DNA of 37,689 nt from a virus: the IMG/VR virus record IMGVR_UViG_3300042352_000874, positions 1 through 37,689 of that record, one strand, 5' to 3'. Both the position numbers and the translations under genes were made by a program. Under the pieces are notes generated by a model, which saw nothing but the letters and a program-made list of their open reading frames with translations, did not search any database and had not been told where the DNA came from. Of the stretch, positions 1 through 37,689 are shown piece by piece. Numbering within the stretch: position 1 is the stretch's first letter; each line of letters begins with the position of its first letter.

Positions 1-179
1 GCGGGTAATCGACGAAGTGTTCAGTAGTAGCAGTCTGCTGTTCAACCATTTAGAGTCGTGGCCAGGCAGGAACTTGCCACCCTTGGTCGGTTCGCCACAG
101 CAGAGACAGGCACTCGCTGTTTTGCCGACTCGGAGAGGTCGTGGGGCTTCTTGCACGGCTTTGATTTTGCGTTGGACTG
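1..179. repeat. Terminal direct repeat, left copy (matches 37511-37689)
   Basis: These 179 bases recur at the right end. Four positions differ (7, 22, 25 and 52), and each is the third base of a codon and leaves the amino acid unchanged. The copies are identical from 53 to 179. This is most simply an assembly overlap of a circular or circularly permuted genome sampled from a mixed population. True terminal repeats would not be expected to diverge within one molecule. Confidence 0.85.
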
Positions 180-15206: not shown

Positions 15207-16031
15207 TTAGATGTCGCTCGGGCCTGTGAACTTGTGGCCTTTGACGGTCAACAGCGGGCCAATTTCGCCGTGCTGTTCGATAGTGATAAGTCGGTAGTCG
15301 ATGTCTCTGGCGTTTCGCGCTGAGGCACCAAATCGTTTGGCCACCGCTTCATGGGTGGCTTCCAGGTTGGCTTCGTCAATGACTTGGCCTGGGTCGCGGT
15401 TGCCGTAAATTGGCATCTCTCCGCAGTCACAGCCTGGGTGGATTGGGAGCAGGTCTTTGACGTTGTAGCGCTGAGTGCTGGCGACGTAACAAAGTCCGCA
15501 GTTTTCGGAGCCGCTCAACACTCGGGCGTAGCCGACGATGTTGGAGTTGCCACCGCGGACGAACAGGCCTGTCTGTGTTTTGGCCAGTTGCATATCGGTG
15601 CGGGCGATGTTGTAAATCCTGGCCGCTCCGAGGTTCAAAGCGGTGTCTAGCGGTTTCCCGTCACCTAGGGCGATGCGGGCGGTCACGAATCCGCGGGTGT
15701 AGATTTCAGCGGCTGTCACTGCACCGCCCCGCAACTCGCTAGGGTTTAGCAGGTTACGGGGCATGCGGCGAGGGTTGAACTCTTGCCCGAGAATTGTGGC
15801 TAGGGTTGCGTAGTAACCCCTAGTCAGGGTGGACATTTGGACAGTGCCTGCGGCGACTAAGGGTAGGACGTTTTTCAAGAACTTAGCCACTGCGGCGTCG
15901 TCTACGCCTCCGATTTCTAGGAATCGTTTCTTGGCGTAACCTGCCACCTCGTCGGTCAGTCGGTTAGACTGCCCCAGGTATTGTCTGCTGAGTTCCTGCG
16001 GTGTTGGCGGTTTGGGTTTCTTGCTGGCCAT
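15207..16031 (-). CDS. MuF-like minor head protein, 274 aa
   Basis: Overlaps the end of the portal gene by 68 bases; no better internal start was found. The centre holds the MuF signature: IYNIARTDMQLAKTQTGLFV, SENCGLCYVAS and HPGCDCGEMP. These Cys-containing motifs are typical of minor capsid proteins that line the portal or act in capsid maturation. A separate capsid protease gene is not seen, so this or the scaffold may cover maturation. Confidence 0.82.
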   Translation of the reverse strand: MASKKPKPPTPQELSRQYLGQSNRLTDEVAGYAKKRFLEIGGVDDAAVAKFLKNVLPLVAAGTVQMSTLTRGYYATLATILGQEFNPRRMPRNLLNPSELRGGAVTAAEIYTRGFVTARIALGDGKPLDTALNLGAARIYNIARTDMQLAKTQTGLFVRGGNSNIVGYARVLSGSENCGLCYVASTQRYNVKDLLPIHPGCDCGEMPIYGNRDPGQVIDEANLEATHEAVAKRFGASARNARDIDYRLITIEQHGEIGPLLTVKGHKFTGPSDI

Positions 16032-17343
16032 TTCCGAAGAGTCCTGTCAGTAGTTGCTCGCCTGCTTTTTCTGCTTCCATCTCGTCGATTTCGGCTGGGC
16101 TGAAGCCGCCGATTAGCGACATTCGGGAGCGGAACGGAACGTCGGTGAATTTCGCGATTGCGTCGCCTCGCTCGGCTAGGCTGTGTCGTTCTGGTGATTG
16201 CCACAGCGGTTCTAGGTCGAGTAGGCTGGCTCGGGCTTCGTCTCCGACGTAACGGAACATCAGCGACATGACGGTTGACCACGCACTGCTTACGCGGGCG
16301 ATTCTGTCTTCCGTCTTGAACACTAGGCCCTCGCGGGCCAGCGCGGCACCCTCGGCGCTTTGCGACTCGCCACCAGGGGTTAGGTAGTGGAGCGGGGTTC
16401 GCGTGACTGCGGCGAAGTCTTGAATGTCGTGTTTCGCGGCGGCCAGGATTCCTTGGATGTCGGTCTGTCCCGATTCCCAAATCTCAGAACCTGGCGGTAG
16501 TAGCCAGAGTGAGCCTGGGCCTGGGCTGAACAGGCCGTTGTAGTCGATGCTGTTGCCGTCGGCGTCAAGTTCTGGCAGGTCGCCTTTGATGGCTCGCTGT
16601 TTGAACGCTTGAGTGGTGACGATAACCAGTCGCTGTAGGACGGTGTGGTTGATACGGTCTAGAATGTCTAGGTGGGTCTCGAACTCGCCAAGGCCACCAA
16701 GGTTCTCGAACTGCACAACTGGGACGACACCTAGCGGGTTAGCGCCTGAACGTTCAGTGTCCAATTCCCAGCCAGCCATTTGAACTAGTGAGCCGTTTGC
16801 AGGCTTGTAGTAAACGACGACTTGGTCTGGGGTGTAGAAGTAGGCGTAGTCCAGTTCGACGTTGTCGTCGCGGTAGACTTTCATCGCGGCCAACACGCGA
16901 CGGCGGTCCACAGGGTCTGTGATAACCGTCATTTGCATTGGGTGTTCGATGGTCACCTGCGGAGCGCCAGTGAATGCCGAGACAGGGCCTACGATTGCGT
17001 AGGACTTGCCGTAGGTCAACATCCAGTCGTGTGCGTCTGCAGAACCGACGACTAGGTCGTTGGCTTTCCACAGGCGACGGGCCTCGCGGTCGCCGTTCTC
17101 ATCACCGTCTGCTCCTGTGCGGAAACCGCCGATGTTCATGCGCTCGCGGACTGCGGCCACCGACAGGTGAGCCAAGTTGGTGCGGGCTTTTTGTTGGAAT
17201 CTGCGGTAAGCGGCTGAGCAACCCTCTGCCCCCTCAGGGAGCGGTGCGTTGCCTGTCGCATAGCGGTGCAGGGTTTCCAAGCGTGGCATTTCGTCGGACA
17301 GTTGTTGCATCAACCGAGTGAATAGGGCAGGCAGTTGAGCCAT
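15964..17343 (-). CDS. Portal protein, 459 aa
   Basis: Follows the large terminase by 11 bases. Segments typical of SPP1/gp6-type portals of actinophages: LQRYATG-like LETLHRYATGNAPLP, FRTGADGDENGDREARRLW, YGKSYAIVGPV, EIWESGQTDIQGILAAAKHD and TRTPLHYLTPGGESQSAEGA. The protein forms the dodecameric DNA entry channel. Length is normal for the family. Confidence 0.92.
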   Translation of the reverse strand: MAQLPALFTRLMQQLSDEMPRLETLHRYATGNAPLPEGAEGCSAAYRRFQQKARTNLAHLSVAAVRERMNIGGFRTGADGDENGDREARRLWKANDLVVGSADAHDWMLTYGKSYAIVGPVSAFTGAPQVTIEHPMQMTVITDPVDRRRVLAAMKVYRDDNVELDYAYFYTPDQVVVYYKPANGSLVQMAGWELDTERSGANPLGVVPVVQFENLGGLGEFETHLDILDRINHTVLQRLVIVTTQAFKQRAIKGDLPELDADGNSIDYNGLFSPGPGSLWLLPPGSEIWESGQTDIQGILAAAKHDIQDFAAVTRTPLHYLTPGGESQSAEGAALAREGLVFKTEDRIARVSSAWSTVMSLMFRYVGDEARASLLDLEPLWQSPERHSLAERGDAIAKFTDVPFRSRMSLIGGFSPAEIDEMEAEKAGEQLLTGLFGNGQQETQTANTAGTQQTIPGAV

Positions 17344-20877: not shown

Positions 20878-21757
20878 ATCGGCCGCTTGAGCCGAAGCCT
20901 TGGTTGCCTCTTGGGTGGGTGTCTAGTTTGGCCACTTCTTTGGGGTGGTGTTGTGCGGTCCAGTTTGGCATGAGGATTAGTTGGGCGACGCGGTCTCCTT
21001 TGAAGATGGTGACTTTTTTGCGGCTGAGGTTGAATACTCCTGCGTAGAGTTCTCCTCGGTAGCCTGGGTCGATGATGCCTTGGTTGACCATGAGGCCGTG
21101 TTTGCGGAGTGTGCTACTGCGGCCTGTGAGCATGGCCCAGGTGTCGCTGTTGAGTTGGACTGCGACTGAGCAGGGGATGTCGACGAATTGGCCTGGTTTG
21201 ATTGTGGTTGTTTGGGAGACGTAGAGGTCGAGGCCTGCGTCGTCGGGGTATGCGCGGCTGGGCGAGAAGCCGTTCTCGTTGAGTTTGAGGAACGGGAGTG
21301 GGGTCAGAGCCTTTTCGAGGTCTCTCGTGGCTTCCGTGACCCATTCCGTGGCTTCTTCGACCCCTGTCTCGGTCAGTGGGTAGGTTTTGAATAGGTCTGG
21401 GTGGGTGAGTTTGGCCCAGGCTCCTGGCATGGCCCAGGTGTGGGGTTGGTTGGTTAGGAATGCGACGGGTTGGCCGTTTTCTAGGGCGCGTTCAACTTCG
21501 ACTGGCACTCCCCAGGATTTTGAGCCTTTTGGCCAGAGGACGATTAGGCCACTGGCTTGGTCTTGGGCGTGTCGGTTGATTTTTTCGATGGTTGGTTCTG
21601 GGGTTGCTTCTGGTGAGACCCAGAATGCTTGGCCTGGTTTGAACAGGTGGGCGTTGCGTTTGGCCAGTTCGTGTTCGATTGCCTGGGTGGCTTTCTGAAC
21701 GGTTTCGGCCACGTGGTTGTTGGCGAGGTCTATTGGGTGGCTGAGGTAGATGAGCAC
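20876..21757 (-). CDS. dut: Deoxyribosyltransferase-like (DUF4406-like) domain fused to dUTPase, 293 aa
   Basis: The GTG at 21757 follows AGAAAGAAA and begins at the first conserved residues (LIYLSHPID); a longer frame is the tail of the next gene's region. Residues 1-110 resemble the nucleoside 2-deoxyribosyltransferase/DNPH1-like fold: LSHPID, ASGLIVLWPKG, then GVPVEVERALENGQPVAFL (Glu). Residues 150-293 hold all five dUTPase motifs: DAGLDLYV (173-180), GRSS (212-215), GIIDPGYRGEL (227-237), GDRVAQLIL (254-262), RGNQGFGSSG (283-292). The dUTPase half removes dUTP and supplies dUMP. The first half may cut or rearrange deoxynucleotides; its substrate is unknown. Confidence 0.88.
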   Translation of the reverse strand: MLIYLSHPIDLANNHVAETVQKATQAIEHELAKRNAHLFKPGQAFWVSPEATPEPTIEKINRHAQDQASGLIVLWPKGSKSWGVPVEVERALENGQPVAFLTNQPHTWAMPGAWAKLTHPDLFKTYPLTETGVEEATEWVTEATRDLEKALTPLPFLKLNENGFSPSRAYPDDAGLDLYVSQTTTIKPGQFVDIPCSVAVQLNSDTWAMLTGRSSTLRKHGLMVNQGIIDPGYRGELYAGVFNLSRKKVTIFKGDRVAQLILMPNWTAQHHPKEVAKLDTHPRGNQGFGSSGR

Positions 21758-21954
21758 GGGGTTTCTTTCTTTTCGTTGTTGGTCCAGATTCGAAGCGCTG
21801 GTTGGCAGGGGTCTCCCCCTGCTTCCCAGTCTTCGTTTTCTTCGTCGGTGTTTTCTAGGCCGTCGTGTGTTGCGCATACGAGTTCGCTACAGTAGCCGAG
21901 TTTGATTCCGATTTGGAGCCAGTCCCAGAGTTCGAGTTCTGGCTGTTCAGCCAT
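21730..21954 (-). CDS. Small acidic conserved-looking protein, 74 aa
   Basis: Starts MAEQPELELWDWLQIGIKLG, then CSELVCATHDGLENTDEE, and ends near DPCQPALRIW. Similar short proteins with the CSEVVCATHDG sequence are widespread in actinophages, with unknown role. It overlaps the dUTPase gene by 28 bases and the next gene upstream by eight, so it belongs to the same transcript. Confidence 0.8.
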   Translation of the reverse strand: MAEQPELELWDWLQIGIKLGYCSELVCATHDGLENTDEENEDWEAGGDPCQPALRIWTNNEKKETPCSSTSATQ

Positions 21955-22225
21955 TGTTCTTTTCCAGGGTTTTGTGGATTTGGGTTGCGAGGGTTATCAG
22001 TTTGCTTGCTGTGGTCTCAACTCCCCAGTGGGTGGTTTCGGTTCCGTCTGGGTTTGTGGTCCAGCCGTGGATGAAGATTTGGCCTCCTGTGTAGTGGATT
22101 CTGGTTTTACTGGTGGGCATGTCTTCGTGGGTTAGGGTGTTGCCTAGGACGTCGGCTTTCCAGCCGAGGTTTTCTAGTGTTTCTCTGGTTAGGTCGAATA
22201 GGACCTTTGGGTCGGTGTTGGTCAT
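21947..22225 (-). CDS. Hypothetical protein, 92 aa
   Basis: MTNTDPKVLFDLTRETLENL is followed by alternating strand and turn regions (RIHYTGGQIFIHGWTTNPDG) and a short C-terminal helix. No family recognised. Start overlaps the stop of the MazG-like gene (ATGA), so it is co-translated with the nucleotide-metabolism genes. Confidence 0.75.
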   Translation of the reverse strand: MTNTDPKVLFDLTRETLENLGWKADVLGNTLTHEDMPTSKTRIHYTGGQIFIHGWTTNPDGTETTHWGVETTASKLITLATQIHKTLEKNNG

Positions 22226-22559: not shown

Positions 22560-23690
22560 TTACCAGACCACCAGTGCTGAGGCTGGGCCTGTGGTCACGA
22601 TGCCGACTGGGACGCCTGCGTCGCGTTGGACTTCTTTGAGCAGGTTGTTTAGGTCGGTTTCGGTTTCTTCGTCTAGGCTTCCCCAGGTTTGTAGGTCTCG
22701 GATGCCTGGGATTTTCTGGTCGACCATGGTTAGGGCGACTAGGACTTCGACGCGGCCTTGGTAGAAGCCTTGTGGTTTCTTGTAGGTGGTTCCGCCGTTG
22801 GCTACTGCGGCGTCGCGGATTAGTTCTGCGTCCCATTCTCCTACGCGTCGCACTTTGTGGGTGACGGTGGTTTTTTCGATTGGTAGGCCGAGTTCTTCCC
22901 AGGTGGTTTCGCCTTTGAGTGGGCCTGAGTTGCCTGCGACGCGGATTGGGTAGACTCGGGCGACTAGCCACACGCCGATGGCTTCGATTCCTGGTGCCCA
23001 GGGGCTGATTCCTGCCATGGCTAGGAAGTCGATTGCTCTGGTGTCGGAACTGGTGCATTGTGGGTAGTGGCCTGCGTGCAGTCCGAGGCCGTAGCCTTGG
23101 GTGCCTTCAATTGCGATGATGGCGTTGTGTTTGTCGGTCCATTCTGCGATGAAGTGTAGGGCTTCTTTGGCGTCGATGATTTGGCCTCCGATTGCTTGGA
23201 TTCGTCGCATGGCGTCTTCGTTGTCGATGATGCGGTCTGCGGCTCTCATGATTCGGTCTGCGCGTGCGGCTCCGATGCCTTTACCTGTTGAGCCGAGTTT
23301 GTTGTGGATGTCGAGGTCGGTTTCGGTGTCTTTGTGTTTCTGTTCTAGCAGTGTGGCTTCTCCGCTGATTACGAGTTTGGAGACTGGGTGTCCGTGTTCG
23401 CGGAGTAGGGCCACTTCTGCTTCTAGGACTTCGAGTTCGATTTCGGAGCCTGGGGCGATGTAGAGGGTGGCTTCGTGGTCTACTGCGGCGGCCACTGGGA
23501 TTGTGCGTAGTGGGAATGCTTGGCCTTTTTTGTCTAGGACGGTGTGGCCTGCGTTTGGTCCTGCTACTCTGATGTTTAGGACGGTGTCGTGTTTGTCGCG
23601 GAATTCGTCGTTGGTGACGATTTGCGCGGTGACGTGTCCTTTACCCTCGGAGCCGAACATGGCTCCTGTGATGATGTGCACTTTACTCAC
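22560..23690 (-). CDS. purZ: PurZ-type adenylosuccinate synthetase homologue, 376 aa
   Basis: GTG at 23690 behind CAGGAG. The adenylosuccinate synthetase pattern is clear: P-loop GAMFGSEGKGHV (10-20), RVAGPNAGHTV (41-51, with the catalytic His), GSTGKGIGAARADR, and IEGTQGYGLGLHAGHYPQCT (SSDTRA next). PurA makes adenylosuccinate from IMP; PurZ instead joins aspartate to dGMP, the first step toward 2-amino-dATP. The P-loop has Ser14 where PurA has catalytic Asp13 (GDEGKG), and the GPNAGHT form matches archaeal-like PurZ. It heads MazG-like, dUTPase and related genes, with a methyltransferase upstream. Phage PurZ is more likely than PurA; activity is untested. Confidence 0.88.
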   Translation of the reverse strand: MSKVHIITGAMFGSEGKGHVTAQIVTNDEFRDKHDTVLNIRVAGPNAGHTVLDKKGQAFPLRTIPVAAAVDHEATLYIAPGSEIELEVLEAEVALLREHGHPVSKLVISGEATLLEQKHKDTETDLDIHNKLGSTGKGIGAARADRIMRAADRIIDNEDAMRRIQAIGGQIIDAKEALHFIAEWTDKHNAIIAIEGTQGYGLGLHAGHYPQCTSSDTRAIDFLAMAGISPWAPGIEAIGVWLVARVYPIRVAGNSGPLKGETTWEELGLPIEKTTVTHKVRRVGEWDAELIRDAAVANGGTTYKKPQGFYQGRVEVLVALTMVDQKIPGIRDLQTWGSLDEETETDLNNLLKEVQRDAGVPVGIVTTGPASALVVW

Positions 23691-23711: not shown

Positions 23712-24560
23712 CTAGTTGGTTTCTGTTTCTATTCTTGTTTTAGCAAGTTGTAGGTATTCTGGGTTGATATCGATTCCGATAAAGTTGCGGCCGTTTTTGA
23801 TTGCGGCGACTCCTGTAGTTCCTGAGCCACAGAACAGGTCTAGGACTGTGTCTCCTGTGTTGGTCCCTGCTAGGACGCATGGTTCGATTAGGTCTTGTGG
23901 GAATGTGGCGAAGTGTGCGCCTTTGTATGGTTTCACTGGGACGGTCCAGACGTCGCGTTTGTTGCGTTGTTCGGTGCCGTTTTTGGTGGTGGTTGGTTCT
24001 TTTAGTTGGTTGAATAGGTAGTTTGGTTTTTTAGTGAGCAGGAAGATGTATTCGTGGCTTTTGGTGCATCTGTCGGTTACGCTTTCTGGGGTTGGGTTTG
24101 GTTTGGCCCAGATGATGTCTTGGCGCAGGTGCCATCCGTCTGCTTGTAGTGCGAATGCGAGTTTCCATGGGATACCGACTAGGTCTTTGTGTTTGATTGG
24201 TGTGTTTTTGAAACTGGAGGCCATGCGGTTGGCGGCGCTACCTTTGGGGACTAGTGTTCCTGTGCTGTTGCCTCGGTTGGTGTCTGGGGTTGCTTTTCCG
24301 TCTCGGTATGAGGCGTATGAGTCTCCGATGTTTAGCCACAGGGTGCCGTTGTCTTTTAGGACTCGTTTGGCTTTATGTAGCACTTTTACTAGGTTTTCGA
24401 TGTATTGGTCTGGGGTTGGTTCGTGGCCGATTTGGAGGTCGGTTCCGTAGTCTCTCAGGCCCCAGTAGGGCGGTGACGTGATGATGGTTTGGATGCTTTG
24501 GCCTGGGATTTGGTTTAGGACGTTTGAGGCGTGGCCTGGGATTAGTTGGTAGTTGGTCAT
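23712..24560 (-). CDS. DNA methyltransferase, N6-A or N4-C type (beta class), 282 aa
   Basis: Catalytic motif [12 protein letters not shown] (28-39) comes before the SAM-binding motif FCGSGTTG (243-250), then [15 protein letters not shown], which is the beta-class order. [20 protein letters not shown] and HEYIFLLTK lie between. SPPY does not decide between N6-adenine and N4-cytosine. No cognate restriction enzyme is seen, so it likely protects phage DNA from host restriction or marks it. It directly precedes the PurZ-like gene and overlaps the previous gene as TAATG. Confidence 0.9.
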
Positions 24561-24904: not shown

Positions 24905-25227
24905 TTTGTGTCTCTTTCCTGTTGGGCGGGGGTCCTGTCCCTGCTGTATTTCCATTCAACCATATCGCGTGTCATTTTGTCAAGTTCTGTGTTTCGGCGT
25001 GTCGTGGAGCGTGTCGTGGGGGTTGGTAAGCGGTAAGCGTGGTAAGCACTATATGACCCTCGGGTGCGTGCGCGAGCGTGCGCGCGTGTTTGTGTGTTCT
25101 CTTGGGTGCTTACCATCTTACCAAATATATTAATAGGGTTTTCTTGCTTTTCCTGACGGGGGAGACGTGGTAAGACAAGGGTGCTTACCAAGCGCTTACC
25201 AAAACCCTCTAGACGCTTACCAGACAT
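24901..25227 (-). CDS. Doubtful frame across the origin region, 108 aa
   Basis: Its ATG overlaps the prim-pol stop as TAATG, which would couple it to that gene. However it is largely a translation of the GGTAAGC repeats (SGKRLEGFGKRLVS), an Arg/Ala/His low-complexity stretch from the GC-alternating DNA, and then promoter P2. I cannot exclude a short product but regard the DNA elements as the main function. Confidence 0.2.
   Translation of the reverse strand: MSGKRLEGFGKRLVSTLVLPRLPRQEKQENPINIFGKMVSTQENTQTRAHARARTRGSYSAYHAYRLPTPTTRSTTRRNTELDKMTRDMVEWKYSRDRTPAQQERDTK
24954..25004 (-). promoter_or_regulatory. Promoter P2 with upstream box
   Basis: TTGACA (24978-24983), 18-base spacer, TTGAAT (24954-24959) with TGG extension, and CGACACGCCGA at 24994-25004. 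A second partial box (CGACACGC) lies at 25009-25016. It drives the 24904-20876 operon that includes the methyltransferase and PurZ-like genes. Confidence 0.75.
25025..25221. repeat. Iteron-rich candidate replication origin
   Basis: The 322-base gap at 24905-25226 holds promoter P2 and this block. GGTAAGC occurs at 25025, 25032 and 25041, and in inverse form at 25108, 25183, 25194 and 25215; variants lie at 25116 and 25169. The right-hand copies are 11 and 21 bases apart, about one and two helical turns. Between the groups are an AT-rich stretch (25121-25143) and alternating purine-pyrimidine DNA (25063-25096). It abuts the prim-pol gene, a usual place for an origin. Confidence 0.6.
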
Positions 25228-27932
25228 TATTCTGAACCCTGGGCGCGGGTTAGGACGGCGTCTGCGTAGGCTTTCGGCAGTTTCCGATACCAGGCTTTGG
25301 TTCGGGTTCCGCTTACCGCCCAGGATTTGCCACGTTCCATGAGGAGCGAGTCGGCTTGTTGTTTGAGGGCCGCTTCGGTTTCAGTTCGCTGTTCAACTTT
25401 GTGGTTGCGGTCTCTTGCCCAGGCTTGCGCCAGCATTGGGATTGACACCCAGACTTCGAGTTGTTCGTCGTTGTCAGAGGTGAGGGTCCCATCCCACTCG
25501 GCTCCCCCAACAGGCCTGACGAAGACAGGGGTTCCGACACCTGCGAAACGGCCAGCCTCAGGTGCGGCCAACGGCGAGTTCGGGAACGACCACGTGCGCA
25601 ACGCCCAAGGCAGGATTTGAGTGGTTAGGGTGTTGTCCCTGTCTAGCCAGCCGTTCAACTCTTGCGCCGCAATCCAGGCCTCCACGCGTAGGGCATGCTC
25701 TCCTTGTCCTCTCCACGCCTCGTCGTGACCACAGAGGTGGTCGAGAAGGTGTGCGCCCGCTCTGAGGACTGCCATCTTGTCGTTGTGGCGTCCAGAGCCG
25801 TGCCGTTTGGCTTTCTTCAACGCTTCCATCACTTGGCTGGATGCGGCGAGCGCTGTCTGGACATACCAACCTGCGAGCGCGGTCAGGCCTTGAGTCTCGT
25901 CGGGGTATTCCGCTTTCAGGTCGAGGACGTCTTCCCACTGGGACCAGTCGCCCCTGGCCGATTTGCGGCCTTTCGGGCTTGGCACTTCTAGGACGATGCA
26001 ACGGTCGATGAGCGCTTTCTGCTGGTTCATGCCTAGCGATTCGCCTGTGATTAGGATTGGGGCGACCACTTGGGTGTTTTTGATGCCGCTCCTGTCCATG
26101 TCCATTTTGCTTGCGGTGCCGTTGCTGGTGCTGGCTCGGAGCAGTTCGCCGTAGGGTTCGAGGCTGTCGAGGTCGTCGGCCCAGACGATTCCGTTCTTGT
26201 TTGCGGACGAGTAGTCGCGCAGAACTGGGCGGGTTGGGGCGATTTGGCCTCGGTGGTTGCCGTTCATTTGGACCATGAGGTCGAAGAATCCGTTGGTCTT
26301 GCCACTCTCGCTGACGGCTTCCACTCCGAAGAATGGGAACAGGCTGGTCCTGGCTTGGATTTGCGGTTTGAGTAGGCAGGCGGCCCACCATGCGCCGAAC
26401 ACTGAGGTTACGGTTTCGTCTTGGAATGTGAGCACTTCTCGCAGGACGGCTTGTGCTTTGTCAATGTTGTGGTTGAAGCCGTAGTTGAAAGGGGCCACGT
26501 CACGTTCGACGAGTTGCGGGTTGGCGACGACTCCTGCGAGTTCTTTGTTCTTCCATCCGTCTTGGGTGATTGTCCCGTCGTGGGTGATGAACGCTTTGAG
26601 GTCGTCGTGCCAGCCGAGGGTTTCAACAATGTGGACTTGGCTTGGGTTTTGCGAGTTGAGGTAGCGGAGCAGGCGGACGCCTGTTGCGGTGCGTGGGATT
26701 GCGTTCATTGGTGGGTCTACTGAGAGGCCTCGCATCGCTAGCCATTTACGCAGGGCGCGGTCGTCGCCTAGGAGTTCTGCGTTCATGGTGGTGTCGATTT
26801 TCTGGTCATACCAGTGCAGTCTGACCCAGAACATGCGTCGGCCGAGTTCGTCAACTGCGACGCCGAGTGCTTCCATGTCGAAGTCTGCGAAGTTGGCCAG
26901 GGCGGGGATTGCTTCGTCGCCTTGTTTGATTACGACTTGGCACTGGATGGTGCGGCCGTCTCCGACTAGGTAGCCGTTCTCTTCGGTTGCGGCGCGTTCT
27001 TGGTGGTTCATTATCTCTGTGCGCCAGATTGAGTCTAGGGTTTTCTCCAGTTCGAACTTGGCCAGCGGCTCAGTTAGGAGCATGTTCGCTTGTTCGCAGT
27101 GTAACTGGTAGAGGTCGCGGTTGTTGCGGTGTTGTTTGGCGTAGTGGCCAGCGACTCGGGTTAGCCAGTCGTTTCGGCCACCTTGCGCTGGTGGGTTGAG
27201 TAGCAGGTCGGTTAGGCTGTTGTTGTGTGGGCTGGTTTCGCCTCGGTTGTTGACTAGGACTAGTCGGCCTGGGTCGAGTTTGGTCGCTGGTTTGCTTTTC
27301 GGTTTCTCGTTGCCTAGGGGGATTCCTGATTCTGCCCAGATGGCTCGAACTTCAGTGTCGGTCAGGGTGTGTTCGATTCCGTAGTTGGCGGTGCCGATGG
27401 TGTAGGGCTGGCCTGTGGCTTCGTGGCGTGTTGGTGGCATGACGATGTAGGAGCCTCGGCCGATTTTGATGTCGAGGCCTCGTCCTAGGGCGGCGGTTTT
27501 CGGTTTGATTTCGGAGCCGAGGGTGCCTGGGACGACTCGGTAGATGAGGTGTCGGTTTCCGTTGCCTCGGCCGCTGAGGTGGGTTCTGGTTGGTGGGAAT
27601 GCTTCTAGGATTTGGCCACCGTGTTGCAGGTCGATGTCGAATGCGACGCGGTCGTCTCCGAGGTTAGCGCCGATGCCTGCGTTTGGGACGCGGGTCCACC
27701 AGCCGATGATTCTGTCTTGGTCGGTGGTGCCGTCCCAGGCTCCGTGTCCGTCTTGGCCACATTCGCCTCGACAGGTGATGCCGTTGTCGTGCGCTCGCGG
27801 GAGCAGGGGGACTTTAGTGCCTGGGCGGAGCGGGAAGACGTTCCATCCGTTCTCGGCTAGTTCTAGGGCGGCGATTAGGTTGTGACCTGCGCTTGACTGG
27901 ACCTGTTCCAGTTGGTGGTCGTTGAGTTTCAC
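25227..27932 (-). CDS. Bifunctional primase-polymerase / ATPase (helicase) replicase, 901 aa
   Basis: N-terminal prim-pol (AEP) domain: NVFPLRPGTKVPL (31-43), catalytic FDID (98-101), a NRHLIYRV segment (His 128), and DIKIGRGSYIVMPPT. The C-terminal half resembles the DUF927-type ATPase: FFGVEAVSESGKTNG as Walker A and GIVWADDLDSL as Walker B, with a sensor-like VVAPILITGES. It should prime and unwind at the origin, which lies directly downstream. GTG at 27932 follows AGAAAAGAGACACC. A CRGECGQDGHG segment near residue 54 may bind metal. Confidence 0.88.
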   Translation of the reverse strand: MKLNDHQLEQVQSSAGHNLIAALELAENGWNVFPLRPGTKVPLLPRAHDNGITCRGECGQDGHGAWDGTTDQDRIIGWWTRVPNAGIGANLGDDRVAFDIDLQHGGQILEAFPPTRTHLSGRGNGNRHLIYRVVPGTLGSEIKPKTAALGRGLDIKIGRGSYIVMPPTRHEATGQPYTIGTANYGIEHTLTDTEVRAIWAESGIPLGNEKPKSKPATKLDPGRLVLVNNRGETSPHNNSLTDLLLNPPAQGGRNDWLTRVAGHYAKQHRNNRDLYQLHCEQANMLLTEPLAKFELEKTLDSIWRTEIMNHQERAATEENGYLVGDGRTIQCQVVIKQGDEAIPALANFADFDMEALGVAVDELGRRMFWVRLHWYDQKIDTTMNAELLGDDRALRKWLAMRGLSVDPPMNAIPRTATGVRLLRYLNSQNPSQVHIVETLGWHDDLKAFITHDGTITQDGWKNKELAGVVANPQLVERDVAPFNYGFNHNIDKAQAVLREVLTFQDETVTSVFGAWWAACLLKPQIQARTSLFPFFGVEAVSESGKTNGFFDLMVQMNGNHRGQIAPTRPVLRDYSSANKNGIVWADDLDSLEPYGELLRASTSNGTASKMDMDRSGIKNTQVVAPILITGESLGMNQQKALIDRCIVLEVPSPKGRKSARGDWSQWEDVLDLKAEYPDETQGLTALAGWYVQTALAASSQVMEALKKAKRHGSGRHNDKMAVLRAGAHLLDHLCGHDEAWRGQGEHALRVEAWIAAQELNGWLDRDNTLTTQILPWALRTWSFPNSPLAAPEAGRFAGVGTPVFVRPVGGAEWDGTLTSDNDEQLEVWVSIPMLAQAWARDRNHKVEQRTETEAALKQQADSLLMERGKSWAVSGTRTKAWYRKLPKAYADAVLTRAQGSE

Positions 27933-31018: not shown

Positions 31019-31071
31019 TTGGTGTCTCTTTTCAGTGGGGGCTTGGGACCTGTTCCCTTGCCTGTATTTCA

Positions 31072-31123
31072 ATTCAACCATATTCCGTGTCTGTTTGTCA
31101 AGTCCTAACACGTCGGCGTGTCG
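31072..31123 (-). promoter_or_regulatory. Promoter P3 with upstream box
   Basis: TTGACA (31096-31101), 18-base spacer, TTGAAT (31072-31077) with TGG extension; box CGACACGCCGA at 31113-31123 begins right after the helicase stop (TAG). Leader about 47 bases to the 31018 gene. Confidence 0.75.
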
Positions 31124-33658: not shown

Positions 33659-33710
33659 CTGTGTCTCCTTGTACCTGGGCTTCGGGCCTGTCCCGCCGCC
33701 TCATATTTCT

Positions 33711-33765
33711 ATTAAATCATATTCTGTGACTTCTTGTCAAGTAATTCAACATTTCGGGCGTGTCG
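33711..33765 (-). promoter_or_regulatory. Promoter P4 with upstream box
   Basis: TTGACA (33735-33740), 18-base spacer, TTTAAT (33711-33716) with TGA extension. CGACACGCCCGA, with one extra C, lies at 33754-33765 directly after the polymerase gene's TGA. It drives 33658 down to the XRE/helicase genes. Confidence 0.72.
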
Positions 33766-35868
33766 TCACTTACCCCAACGCTTCATGTCCACGTCCCCAG
33801 GAACCCCAGGGAAGAACTTCGACCACAACTCCCGACCACGCGCCACGGCCGCCTCGGCAATCGCCTGGCCACCGTCCTCAGGCAGAAGCAAAACCATCGA
33901 GTCGTGAATCAACATAACCACACCGACACGGCCAATCGGCTCCAACGAGCCAGGGTCAACCTCAACCCCATCGCCCAGTTCAGCAGTGATAGTGGCCTCC
34001 ACGTCCAACCACCAATTCAACCCAAACTGAGCCAAGTTCGGCTGAACCCGCTGGTTGAACGCCTTGTGCGTGTCCTCGTCAGGTTGGAACCAACGGCGCT
34101 CGCCGTTAGCCGTAGCAACCCAGCCGAGGCCCCAAAAAGCCCCCGAGCGGCGACGGTCCTCGACCGCTTCCATGTGGTGCTTGATGGCCTGTTGGAACTC
34201 AGGGAACAAGGCATTCCAGTCACGGACAAGACGACGAGCCTCGTCCAAAGTCAAGACAACCCCAGTCTGGGTCTCAATGTCGGCCTGCAACTTCTCAGCC
34301 CCAACACCGAAAATCAACGAGAAGTTGGCACGTTTAGCCACGTTCCTCATTTTGCCCCAGTCTGGTGAATCGGGGGTCACCTTGAACAACTGAGTCGCGG
34401 CCTCGCCGTGCAAGTCCTGGCCCTCGTTAATCAAAGCCAGCATCCTTGTGCAGTTCGCGTATAGAGCGGCCACTCGCAACTCGGCCTGAGCCAAGTCCAA
34501 CTCCCACAACTCGAAACCAGACGGGACGCCCGCCCCGATTAACTGTCGAGGGGTAACAATGTCCGCGAGCGCGTCATAACCCGCCAAGCGGTAGTCGTGC
34601 GGGATAGCCTGGAGTTGGACACGTTCAACCGAGAAACGGCTAGACACCGTGCCGTTTTGACGGACACTCGCACGAAGTCGGCCGTCAGGGCCAACCATCG
34701 AAGCCCAACCAGAATACCAACGCGAGTCGACCGTGTTCAACTTCTGCAAATCGCGCCAAAGGTCAGCCGCAGGGACCTTGTCAGCCACCATTTTGTCAAT
34801 CACCTGAGCATTCAACTGAGGCTGGCCACTCTCGGTCTGAGCATAAGGGGCCAAACCCAGGCCAGCGACGCCATTCTTCACCCCAGTGCCAAACCAGTAG
34901 TGTTTAGCCATCGGTAGCGTGGCTGGCTTGAACGGCAACTTGGCCGTCAGCGCTTCTTGCCGTTTCGCAATCAACTCCGACTGGGCCACCGCCAAGTCAG
35001 CATTGAAAGGCAGGCCACGACGTTCAATCCTGAACAACATCAACGAAGTCGCCAAACGTCGTTCAATGACCTCGGCCAGTGACAGGTGACCCTTGCTCTG
35101 GTCGAACCACGTCTTGGCCAGGGCGAACTCGGCCTCTTGGTGTTCGTAGAGACGGATTGTCAGTCTGGCGTCTTGGTCGGCGTAAGGCCCGATGGTCTCC
35201 CAAGGCACGAGGTCCCAACGGCCGTTAGGCAGTTTCGACTTCGCGAGGTAGGCTTTGACGAGTTGCGACTCGTTCGTCTCAGCCACGCCCCAGAGCCTCT
35301 GCGCGGTCGGCTTCAACGAGGTGGTCTTCGCCTGGGGCCAGAATAGGTGGCAGACGTTCTGGGTGTCCCAAACCGTCCAAGGCGACAAGTCAATTCCCTG
35401 GCCTGGCCAACGTCTCACTCCTGCGTCCATCAAGTGCAGGTCGAACTTGGCGTGGTGGAAGACGAACCCGCAACAGCGGCCGACGATTCGAAGCCATTCA
35501 AGTAGGGCCTGCCATTCACTCTCGGGCAGGTTTTGGGTTTTGCCCCATAGAGACAGGTTCCCGAGGTCTTCAGGTTTGCCCGTCCCCTCAACCCCCTGGT
35601 CAAACGCCCAGGCCACGGAAGCCACGGGGAGGCTCTCGGAGCCGTGGACCCTCTCAAAACCCCACGAGGCCACGGAAGTGTCACGGAGACCCAAGAAAGG
35701 GCCGAAGAGACCCCGCCAAGACTCTCCGCGGTCAATCCAGGCCACTGAGACTACCGCTACCCTGGCCCCATCGTCCACGAAGAGACCCGAAGTCTCAGTG
35801 TCGAGAGCCACAGGGCCAGACGGGAGCGTTCCACGCAAAGCCAGTTGAAGTAGTTGAGAGGGAAGCAC
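33766..35868 (-). CDS. Family A DNA polymerase with 3'-5' exonuclease, 700 aa
   Basis: GTG at 35868 after AAGGAGAAAAACC. Proofreading motifs: ALDTETSG (Asp23, Glu25), HHAKFDLHL (Asp143), YADQDARLT (Asp233). Polymerase motifs: A LDLAQAELR (Asp458), B RNVAKRANFSLIFG (Lys512, Phe516, Phe520), C LIHDSMVL (Asp656). No 5'-3' exonuclease domain, as in T7-like phage enzymes. Two motif changes against E. coli Pol I: Phe520 at Tyr766 and Ser657 at Glu883. With a PurZ-like gene it may be a DpoZ-type polymerase that favours aminoadenine. Confidence 0.92.
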   Translation of the reverse strand: MLPSQLLQLALRGTLPSGPVALDTETSGLFVDDGARVAVVSVAWIDRGESWRGLFGPFLGLRDTSVASWGFERVHGSESLPVASVAWAFDQGVEGTGKPEDLGNLSLWGKTQNLPESEWQALLEWLRIVGRCCGFVFHHAKFDLHLMDAGVRRWPGQGIDLSPWTVWDTQNVCHLFWPQAKTTSLKPTAQRLWGVAETNESQLVKAYLAKSKLPNGRWDLVPWETIGPYADQDARLTIRLYEHQEAEFALAKTWFDQSKGHLSLAEVIERRLATSLMLFRIERRGLPFNADLAVAQSELIAKRQEALTAKLPFKPATLPMAKHYWFGTGVKNGVAGLGLAPYAQTESGQPQLNAQVIDKMVADKVPAADLWRDLQKLNTVDSRWYSGWASMVGPDGRLRASVRQNGTVSSRFSVERVQLQAIPHDYRLAGYDALADIVTPRQLIGAGVPSGFELWELDLAQAELRVAALYANCTRMLALINEGQDLHGEAATQLFKVTPDSPDWGKMRNVAKRANFSLIFGVGAEKLQADIETQTGVVLTLDEARRLVRDWNALFPEFQQAIKHHMEAVEDRRRSGAFWGLGWVATANGERRWFQPDEDTHKAFNQRVQPNLAQFGLNWWLDVEATITAELGDGVEVDPGSLEPIGRVGVVMLIHDSMVLLLPEDGGQAIAEAAVARGRELWSKFFPGVPGDVDMKRWGK

Positions 35869-37442: not shown

Positions 37443-37689
37443 GAGATTCTCTTCTTCAACTTGTCGGCCAGTGCGGGTGAGACTTCGGCCACTGATGCGA
37501 GCATCTCGTCGCGGGTTATCGACGAAGTGTTGAGCAGTAGCAGTCTGCTGTTCAACCATTTGGAGTCGTGGCCAGGCAGGAACTTGCCACCCTTGGTCGG
37601 TTCGCCACAGCAGAGACAGGCACTCGCTGTTTTGCCGACTCGGAGAGGTCGTGGGGCTTCTTGCACGGCTTTGATTTTGCGTTGGACTG
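37439..37689 (-). CDS. Cys-rich putative zinc-binding protein, C-terminal part (starts at left end)
   Basis: Remainder of the gene whose start is at 441. It holds CLCCGEPTKGGKFLPGHDSK and ends VSPALADKLKKRIS. Bases 37511-37689 repeat 1-179, so a closed molecule has one intact 170-residue gene. The TGA stop overlaps the resolvase ATG. Confidence 0.8.
   Translation of the reverse strand, partial: VQRKIKAVQEAPRPLRVGKTASACLCCGEPTKGGKFLPGHDSKWLNSRLLLLNTSSITRDEMLASVAEVSPALADKLKKRIS
37511..37689. repeat. Terminal direct repeat, right copy
   Basis: Matches 1-179 with four synonymous differences, all in its first 52 bases. See the left copy. Closing on this overlap gives about 37,510 bp. Confidence 0.85.

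Follow-up and report, generated by a model that had tools for sequence, protein, structure and literature searches.

On its minus strand, the analyzed window carries a purZ gene, a small partner gene, a further small ORF and a dmtZ-dutZ fusion, together with a primase-polymerase/helicase gene and, at some distance, dpoZ (Table 1). Presence, family, catalytic residues, synteny and exclusivity of these genes were determined by computation. The window comprises the IMG/VR record IMGVR_UViG_3300042352_000874 (positions 1-37,689) of an uncultivated phage. Due to the 179 nt direct repeat at its ends, the copies of which are 98% identical, it can be concluded that the contig wraps and that the genome of approximately 37.5 kb is near complete. 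A nucleotide comparison with isolates did not reveal any phage with similar DNA. Relatives of the terminase and of PurZ were found in phages of Actinomycetota, and the siphovirus-like phage very probably has an actinobacterium as host. A search of bacterial genomes for a host via prophages gave one match only, L017, located on a contig of a Verrucomicrobia bin. This contig is a PurZ0 locus, while a normal PurA is encoded on another contig of the same bin; L017 is probably a phage contig caught in this bin. Approximately 30 PurZ0 contigs (L126-L163), apparently from uncultured phages, constitute a freshwater-type cluster.

Table 1. Features of the window, with the evidence for their assignment. 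Gene functions are predictions.
Feature	Position	Strand	Evidence or remark
Terminal direct repeat, copy 1	1..179	.	98% identical to 37511-37689
dmtZ-dutZ fusion, 293 aa	20876..21757	-	Wayne identity, kept residues, dUTPase models
Small ORF between DUF6378-like gene and dmtZ-dutZ	21947..22225	-	Overlaps neighbor by 4 nt
PurZ0-linked DUF6378-like four-helix protein, 111 aa	22222..22557	-	Adjoins purZ; family alignment, distribution, fold
purZ (PurZ0 type), succino-amino-deoxyadenylate synthetase	22560..23690	-	NF038379, phrog_1211, 7vf6, residues, tree
N6_N4-type DNA methyltransferase, TSPPYW motif	23712..24560	-	PF01555, E 6e-55
Primase-polymerase/helicase, replication module	25227..27932	-	PF09250, phrog_5177; 983 bits to Wayne
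dpoZ, Wayne-type aminoadenine-incorporating family A DNA polymerase, 3'-5' exonuclease domain	33766..35868	-	NF038381
Terminal direct repeat, copy 2	37511..37689	.	

The purZ ORF starts with GTG and encodes 376 amino acids including the motifs GAMFGSEGKG and GPNAGHT. With the NCBIfam PurZ model the protein scored 337 bits (cut-off 300, E = 8.5e-101), while the best PurA-type model reached 193 bits and thus stayed under its cut-off of 368. The protein also matched phrog_1211, and its closest solved structure is PDB 7vf6, a 'PurA-like adenylosuccinate synthetase' (E 4e-83). The initial annotation had assigned a PurZ-type enzyme on the basis of a GSEGKG P-loop, in which the catalytic Asp of PurA is lost, and of the GPNAGHT segment. 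The loss of the Asp is real. In a residue alignment of 30 proteins (22 phage PurZ/PurZ0 and eight PurA rows), the position corresponding to S23 of S-2L is occupied by Ser in all 22 phage rows, here by Ser14, and by Asp in all eight PurA rows. The same alignment revealed, at the position of S-2L T273 in the aspartate loop, Thr in PurZ/PurZ0 and Gly in PurA; the loop of the phage protein (Thr274-Thr277) reads TTVT and is of the PurZ type. Further residues of the pocket also speak for PurZ. The GPNAGHT segment is present as described, its NAGHT core being common to PurA while the preceding Pro is typical of PurZ. A possible placement inside the cellular PurA clades was checked by a phylogenetic tree, in which the protein fell outside them. 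PurZ and PurZ0 together formed one group (100/100) and PurA a separate one (100/100), the nearest PurA being that of the archaeon Pyrococcus, while PurZ0 as a single group obtained a support of only 87/93. The phage protein clustered with that of the locus L003 (100/99) within the group of Wayne, Ghobes, Goodman and Parvaparticeps. By family models, diagnostic residues and tree, the predicted product of the gene is confirmed to be a PurZ of the actinophage PurZ0 clade and not a PurA. It is most improbable that the protein is a divergent PurA, which converts IMP to adenylosuccinate and aids the ordinary purine supply. The fold is the same, the protein is assigned to the Pfam family Adenylsucc_synt and 'PurA-like' is a frequent label in isolate records, but the replacement of the catalytic Asp by Ser, the PurZ-type loop, the well supported PurZ clade and the occurrence of DpoZ and DmtZ-DutZ in the same genome contradict this explanation.

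In the guanine pocket, the phage PurZ possesses Asp324 where S-2L has Gln308. This residue is Asp in PurA proteins using GTP, and Gln or Asn in PurZ proteins using ATP. GTP is reportedly the donor of PurZ0 according to the paper on this enzyme. One sentence in PMC12884076 gives the donors the opposite way round. Due to Asp324, GTP is the expected donor of the phage enzyme.

The family A polymerase that had been noticed along with purZ is indeed present, and the NCBIfam model identifies it as a true DpoZ (811 bits, cut-off 350). It is 50% identical to the DpoZ of Wayne. In its motif B, AKRANFSLIFG, the steric gate of helix O is formed by Phe520, and this exchange of Tyr for Phe is the sole change common to both DpoZ clades (PMC8599892). 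The dmtZ-dutZ gene probably starts with GTG at 21757, though the longest ORF begins at 21877. Its product is composed of an N-terminal DmtZ domain and a C-terminal, dUTPase-like DutZ domain matched by dUTPase models, and is 38% identical to DmtZ-DutZ of Wayne over the full span. Residues Y4, D10, P41, N61, E87 and W108 of DmtZ, of which Y4, N61 and E87 make up the triad, are kept and correspond to Tyr6, Asp12, Pro57, Asn77, Glu103 and Trp124 of Ghobes DmtZ. The phage also agrees with the PurZ0 subgroup, in which DutZ occurs in every genome and DmtZ in most, often as a fusion. For DutZ of Wayne and Ghobes, assays demonstrated hydrolysis of dATP and dGTP, and DmtZ was found to cleave dAMP by hydrolysis and to pass the sugar on to Z (PMC12884076). 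The activities of DmtZ, DutZ and DpoZ of the phage are predicted from homologues that are 38-50% identical.

Regarding the other neighboring genes, the primase-polymerase/helicase is syntenic with that of Wayne, and for the small ORF at 21947-22225 a homologue was found only in L003. The methyltransferase gene, which is specific to this lineage, lies 21 nt upstream of purZ. It was rejected as a component of the Z system because a homologue exists in only one of 86 PurZ0 loci. Its best relatives, which are about 50% identical, belong to marine cyanophages and Pseudomonas phages. A 45-nt element occurs four times on the minus strand (1056-1100, 24944-24988, 31062-31106 and 33701-33745). It contains TTGACA followed, after a spacer of 18 nt, by TTGAAT or TTTAAT. 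All copies are located upstream of minus-strand genes, the first three at a distance of 30-41 nt and the last one further away. With their conserved spacer, these elements are probably repeated sigma70-type promoters.

The gene after purZ had been described as MazG-like, but neither sequence nor profile nor fold sustained this description. Sequence searches of Pfam, NCBIfam and the PDB with the 111-aa protein gave no match. By hhalign, a probability of at most 1.5% was obtained with MazZ of S-2L, two genes located downstream of purZ in phiVC8, and the DUF5664 protein of Wayne (gp51), homology to the latter not being detected (0.1%). DUF1599 (PF07659), which was suspected from the motif pattern, was rejected since nine of nine records gave no match. 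The AlphaFold2 model, which is confident (pLDDT 90.7), exhibits four helices. No match was obtained against the PDB apart from a very weak one to the MazG-like NTPase DR2231 (E 4.7), while a viral structure library returned the protein's own family and then repeatedly DUF6378 (probability 0.98-0.99, TM approximately 0.55). At the sequence level, DUF6378 (PF19905) scored weakly in two relatives (E 7e-4 and 4e-3) and not in the 111-aa protein itself; the best relative attained 14.8 bits and did not reach the Pfam cut-off of 27.1 bits. It is rather unlikely that the partner is a true MazG/MazZ pyrophosphohydrolase. Such an enzyme would fit the all-helical model, the position next to purZ, which is also that of mazZ, and the faint similarity to DR2231. 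On the other hand, the hhalign probabilities are very low, the ExxE/ExxD pattern is absent among the invariant residues of the family alignment, and the nearest fold outside the protein's own family is DUF6378. The gene immediately preceding the PurZ-type purZ of Ochrobactrum phage OH (L092, 16029-16529) is annotated as phosphofructokinase but belongs to phrog_474. This phrog was also weakly matched by one member of the partner family, but hhalign between the two families gave no match.

The distribution of the partner gene is remarkable. It was detected in 72 of the 86 PurZ0 loci, on the same strand 0-939 nt after purZ, where it constitutes the following gene or the terminal part of that gene. 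The remaining 14 loci harbor a DUF5664 homologue instead, and there is not any locus with both or with neither. In approximately 100 terminase-related loci of PurZ-less kin, the gene was not found. Thirty-one isolate records contain it (Microbacterium 18, Gordonia 6, Streptomyces 5, Curtobacterium 1, Micrococcus 1), and the main PurZ0 matches, Arthrobacter excepted, are distributed over the genera in exactly the same numbers. A text search of PMC12884076 did not reveal any mention of the gene. DUF5664-1 hydrolyzes dATP and dGTP, so that a functional replacement is the most economical interpretation, and from its distribution the DUF6378-like protein is probably a stand-in for DUF5664-1.

PurZ, a Wayne-type DpoZ and a DmtZ-DutZ protein with its catalytic residues kept make a 2-aminoadenine genome likely. 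The Z genome, put forward as a possibility in the initial annotation, is now supported as probable by family models, residues, tree, DpoZ, DmtZ-DutZ and gene order. We therefore assume, with a probability of about 0.85, that this siphovirus-like phage, whose genome is contained almost completely in the window, makes a Z genome by the PurZ0 route; the enzyme activities and the virion's Z content are deduced from homology. In the proposed pathway, PurZ would convert dGMP and aspartate to dSMP, from which PurB and kinases of the host would produce dZTP. No adenylosuccinate lyase gene (purB) was seen in this near-complete genome and hence, as in Wayne, the host enzyme would be needed. DutZ would degrade dATP and dGTP to the monophosphates, by which a competitor is removed and dGMP is supplied. 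DmtZ may destroy dAMP or move its sugar phosphate to free Z, the DUF6378-like protein most probably takes the role of DUF5664-1 of Arthrobacter phages, and DpoZ would prefer dZTP over dATP.

The initial annotation had further suggested that the phage resists host restriction by replacing adenine. The frequencies of restriction sites do not agree with this suggestion. Compared to the counts expected from the trinucleotide content (37.5 kb, no N), CCGG (0, 161 expected), AGCT (0, 102), GATC (0, 96) and GTAC (2, 88) are almost completely absent, and in 30 second-order Markov shuffles none of these four sites ever fell below 69. GCWGC is also rare (1, 79 expected), while for GGCC, TCGA and other sites the counts are close to expectation. 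Three of the four purged sites contain A, and the Z genes themselves do not harbor a single copy of the four. Since AGCT, GATC, GTAC and probably GCWGC have been almost wholly purged, restriction resistance through Z is not supported for this lineage. L003 (G002) is devoid of AGCT, CCGG and GATC but has kept GTAC and is short of GCGC, indicating that the avoided set changed among PurZ carriers. In phiVC8, a reported Z phage, GATC occurs four times instead of the expected 152, although in Vibrio the frequency of this site may have other causes (Dam-linked functions).

Among 29 nucleotide clusters of PurZ0 loci, there are nine in which one or more A/T-containing tetramers are avoided. With 7/29 clusters, AGCT is purged more frequently than any other tetramer, an indication that AluI-type enzymes are able to act on ZGCT; it is purged in this phage and in L003, L007, L013, L017, L116, L120, L121, L123 and L160. 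Many contigs of the L126-L163 cluster lack CCGG and about half of them also GATC. Avoided sites were A/T-containing or GC-only at a ratio of 17:5 in the PurZ0 clusters and of 9:4 in ten clusters of PurZ-less kin (p 0.70), counts which are small, in which clustering is not a full phylogenetic correction and in which some control fragments might be Z phages. By locus, the values were 43:34 for Z phages and 48:22 for the kin (Fisher p 0.13). Avoidance of A-containing sites is thus not lower in PurZ0 clusters than in PurZ-less kin and there is no sign of relief. The idea that Z phages avoid only GC-only sites was rejected on the basis of the same counts. L040/G028 was discarded as PurZ-free kin because the fragment ends before the replication genes.

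These data suggest that the swapped base alone is not enough to stop DNA-cutting enzymes of the host. Host restriction, as the presumable cause of the purge, would persist despite Z and A-containing palindromes would be counter-selected, because either host enzymes cut Z-DNA at the purged sites or the virion keeps some A. A phage with complete and protective Z would have no need to purge A-containing sites, and substitution may therefore be incomplete. It is conceivable, if not very likely, that only part of the A is replaced despite expression of the Z pathway, so that sites containing A in a mixed virion DNA can still be cut. The virtual absence of AGCT, GATC and GTAC, the scarcity of GATC in phiVC8 and the equally frequent avoidance in Z clusters and PurZ-less kin are in line with this assumption. 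By contrast, phiVC8 and related phages are reported to be fully substituted (PMC12884076, PMC8342488), yet phiVC8 avoids GATC, and DpoZ and the dATP-removal genes of the phage look intact. There is still less reason to regard the purge as a relic predating the acquisition of the Z module. Although the PurZ-less relatives G029 and G030, which have similar head genes, also avoid AGCT and GATC, a relic would hardly explain why none of the sites exists inside the Z genes, nor why L003, whose PurZ is 33% divergent, shares the avoidance of AGCT, CCGG and GATC but differs in GTAC and GCGC. Moreover, mutation would restore the sites if selection were absent.

The phage has the complete set of known Z genes, which is ordinary for its family and represents a known system, that of the PurZ0 phages characterized in 2021-2026, to which the Z-genome call adds one more, well-diverged member. 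Possible novelties are the DUF6378-like partner specific to PurZ0 phages and the continued purging of sites with A; the literature searched, mostly without subscription papers, reported neither of them. Tentatively, and with slightly less than even odds, both can be linked in one proposal. In nature, Z would be unprotective against type II restriction of the host at sites with A, for instance AGCT, GATC and GTAC, which are still purged, and the DUF6378-like protein, obligatory where DUF5664-1 is missing, would be a further, unrelated enzyme of the Z-DNA nucleotide pool or a required partner of PurZ0. If the first part is true, Z must pay for itself in some other way. The partner gene provides a clear candidate for a small enzyme that published accounts of the PurZ0 pathway lack, a point of importance for attempts to reconstruct Z-DNA synthesis in cells.

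Phages with an ATP-type PurZ (phiVC8, SH-Ab 15497 and S-2L) have the Ser at the catalytic-Asp position and the logic of the Z genome in common with this phage. Their PurZ proteins are only 27-30% identical to that of the phage and belong to a separate clade, DatZ together with MazZ or DUF550 takes the place of DutZ, DmtZ and the DUF6378-like protein, and their DpoZ is of a different clade or, in S-2L, missing. The partner protein is distantly similar to DUF6378 in sequence and fold, albeit below the family cut-off. The best PurZ match among isolates (51%) is Curtobacterium phage Parvaparticeps (MZ357096), which shares the DUF6378-like partner domain, DpoZ and DutZ and also avoids AGCT. In this phage, however, a fused DmtZ was not seen in the dutZ gene and the partner domain ends a protein of 300 amino acids. 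Ghobes (Gordonia) and Wayne (Arthrobacter), whose PurZ proteins are 42% and 48% identical, respectively, to that of the phage, share PurZ0, DmtZ, DutZ, a Wayne-type DpoZ and PrimPol with it (PMC12884076). Contrary to the phage, Ghobes has purB. Annotated adenylosuccinate lyase genes (purB-like) lie at 1419-2552 in Ghobes (L019) and at 15532-16905 in Spocter (L024), and some PurZ0 phages thus bring the next step of the pathway with them. Wayne differs by its DUF5664 partner and by an HNH gene upstream of purZ, where the phage has the methyltransferase, but its DmtZ and DutZ are likewise fused and the order of purZ, partner, small ORF(s) and dmtZ-dutZ is alike in both phages.
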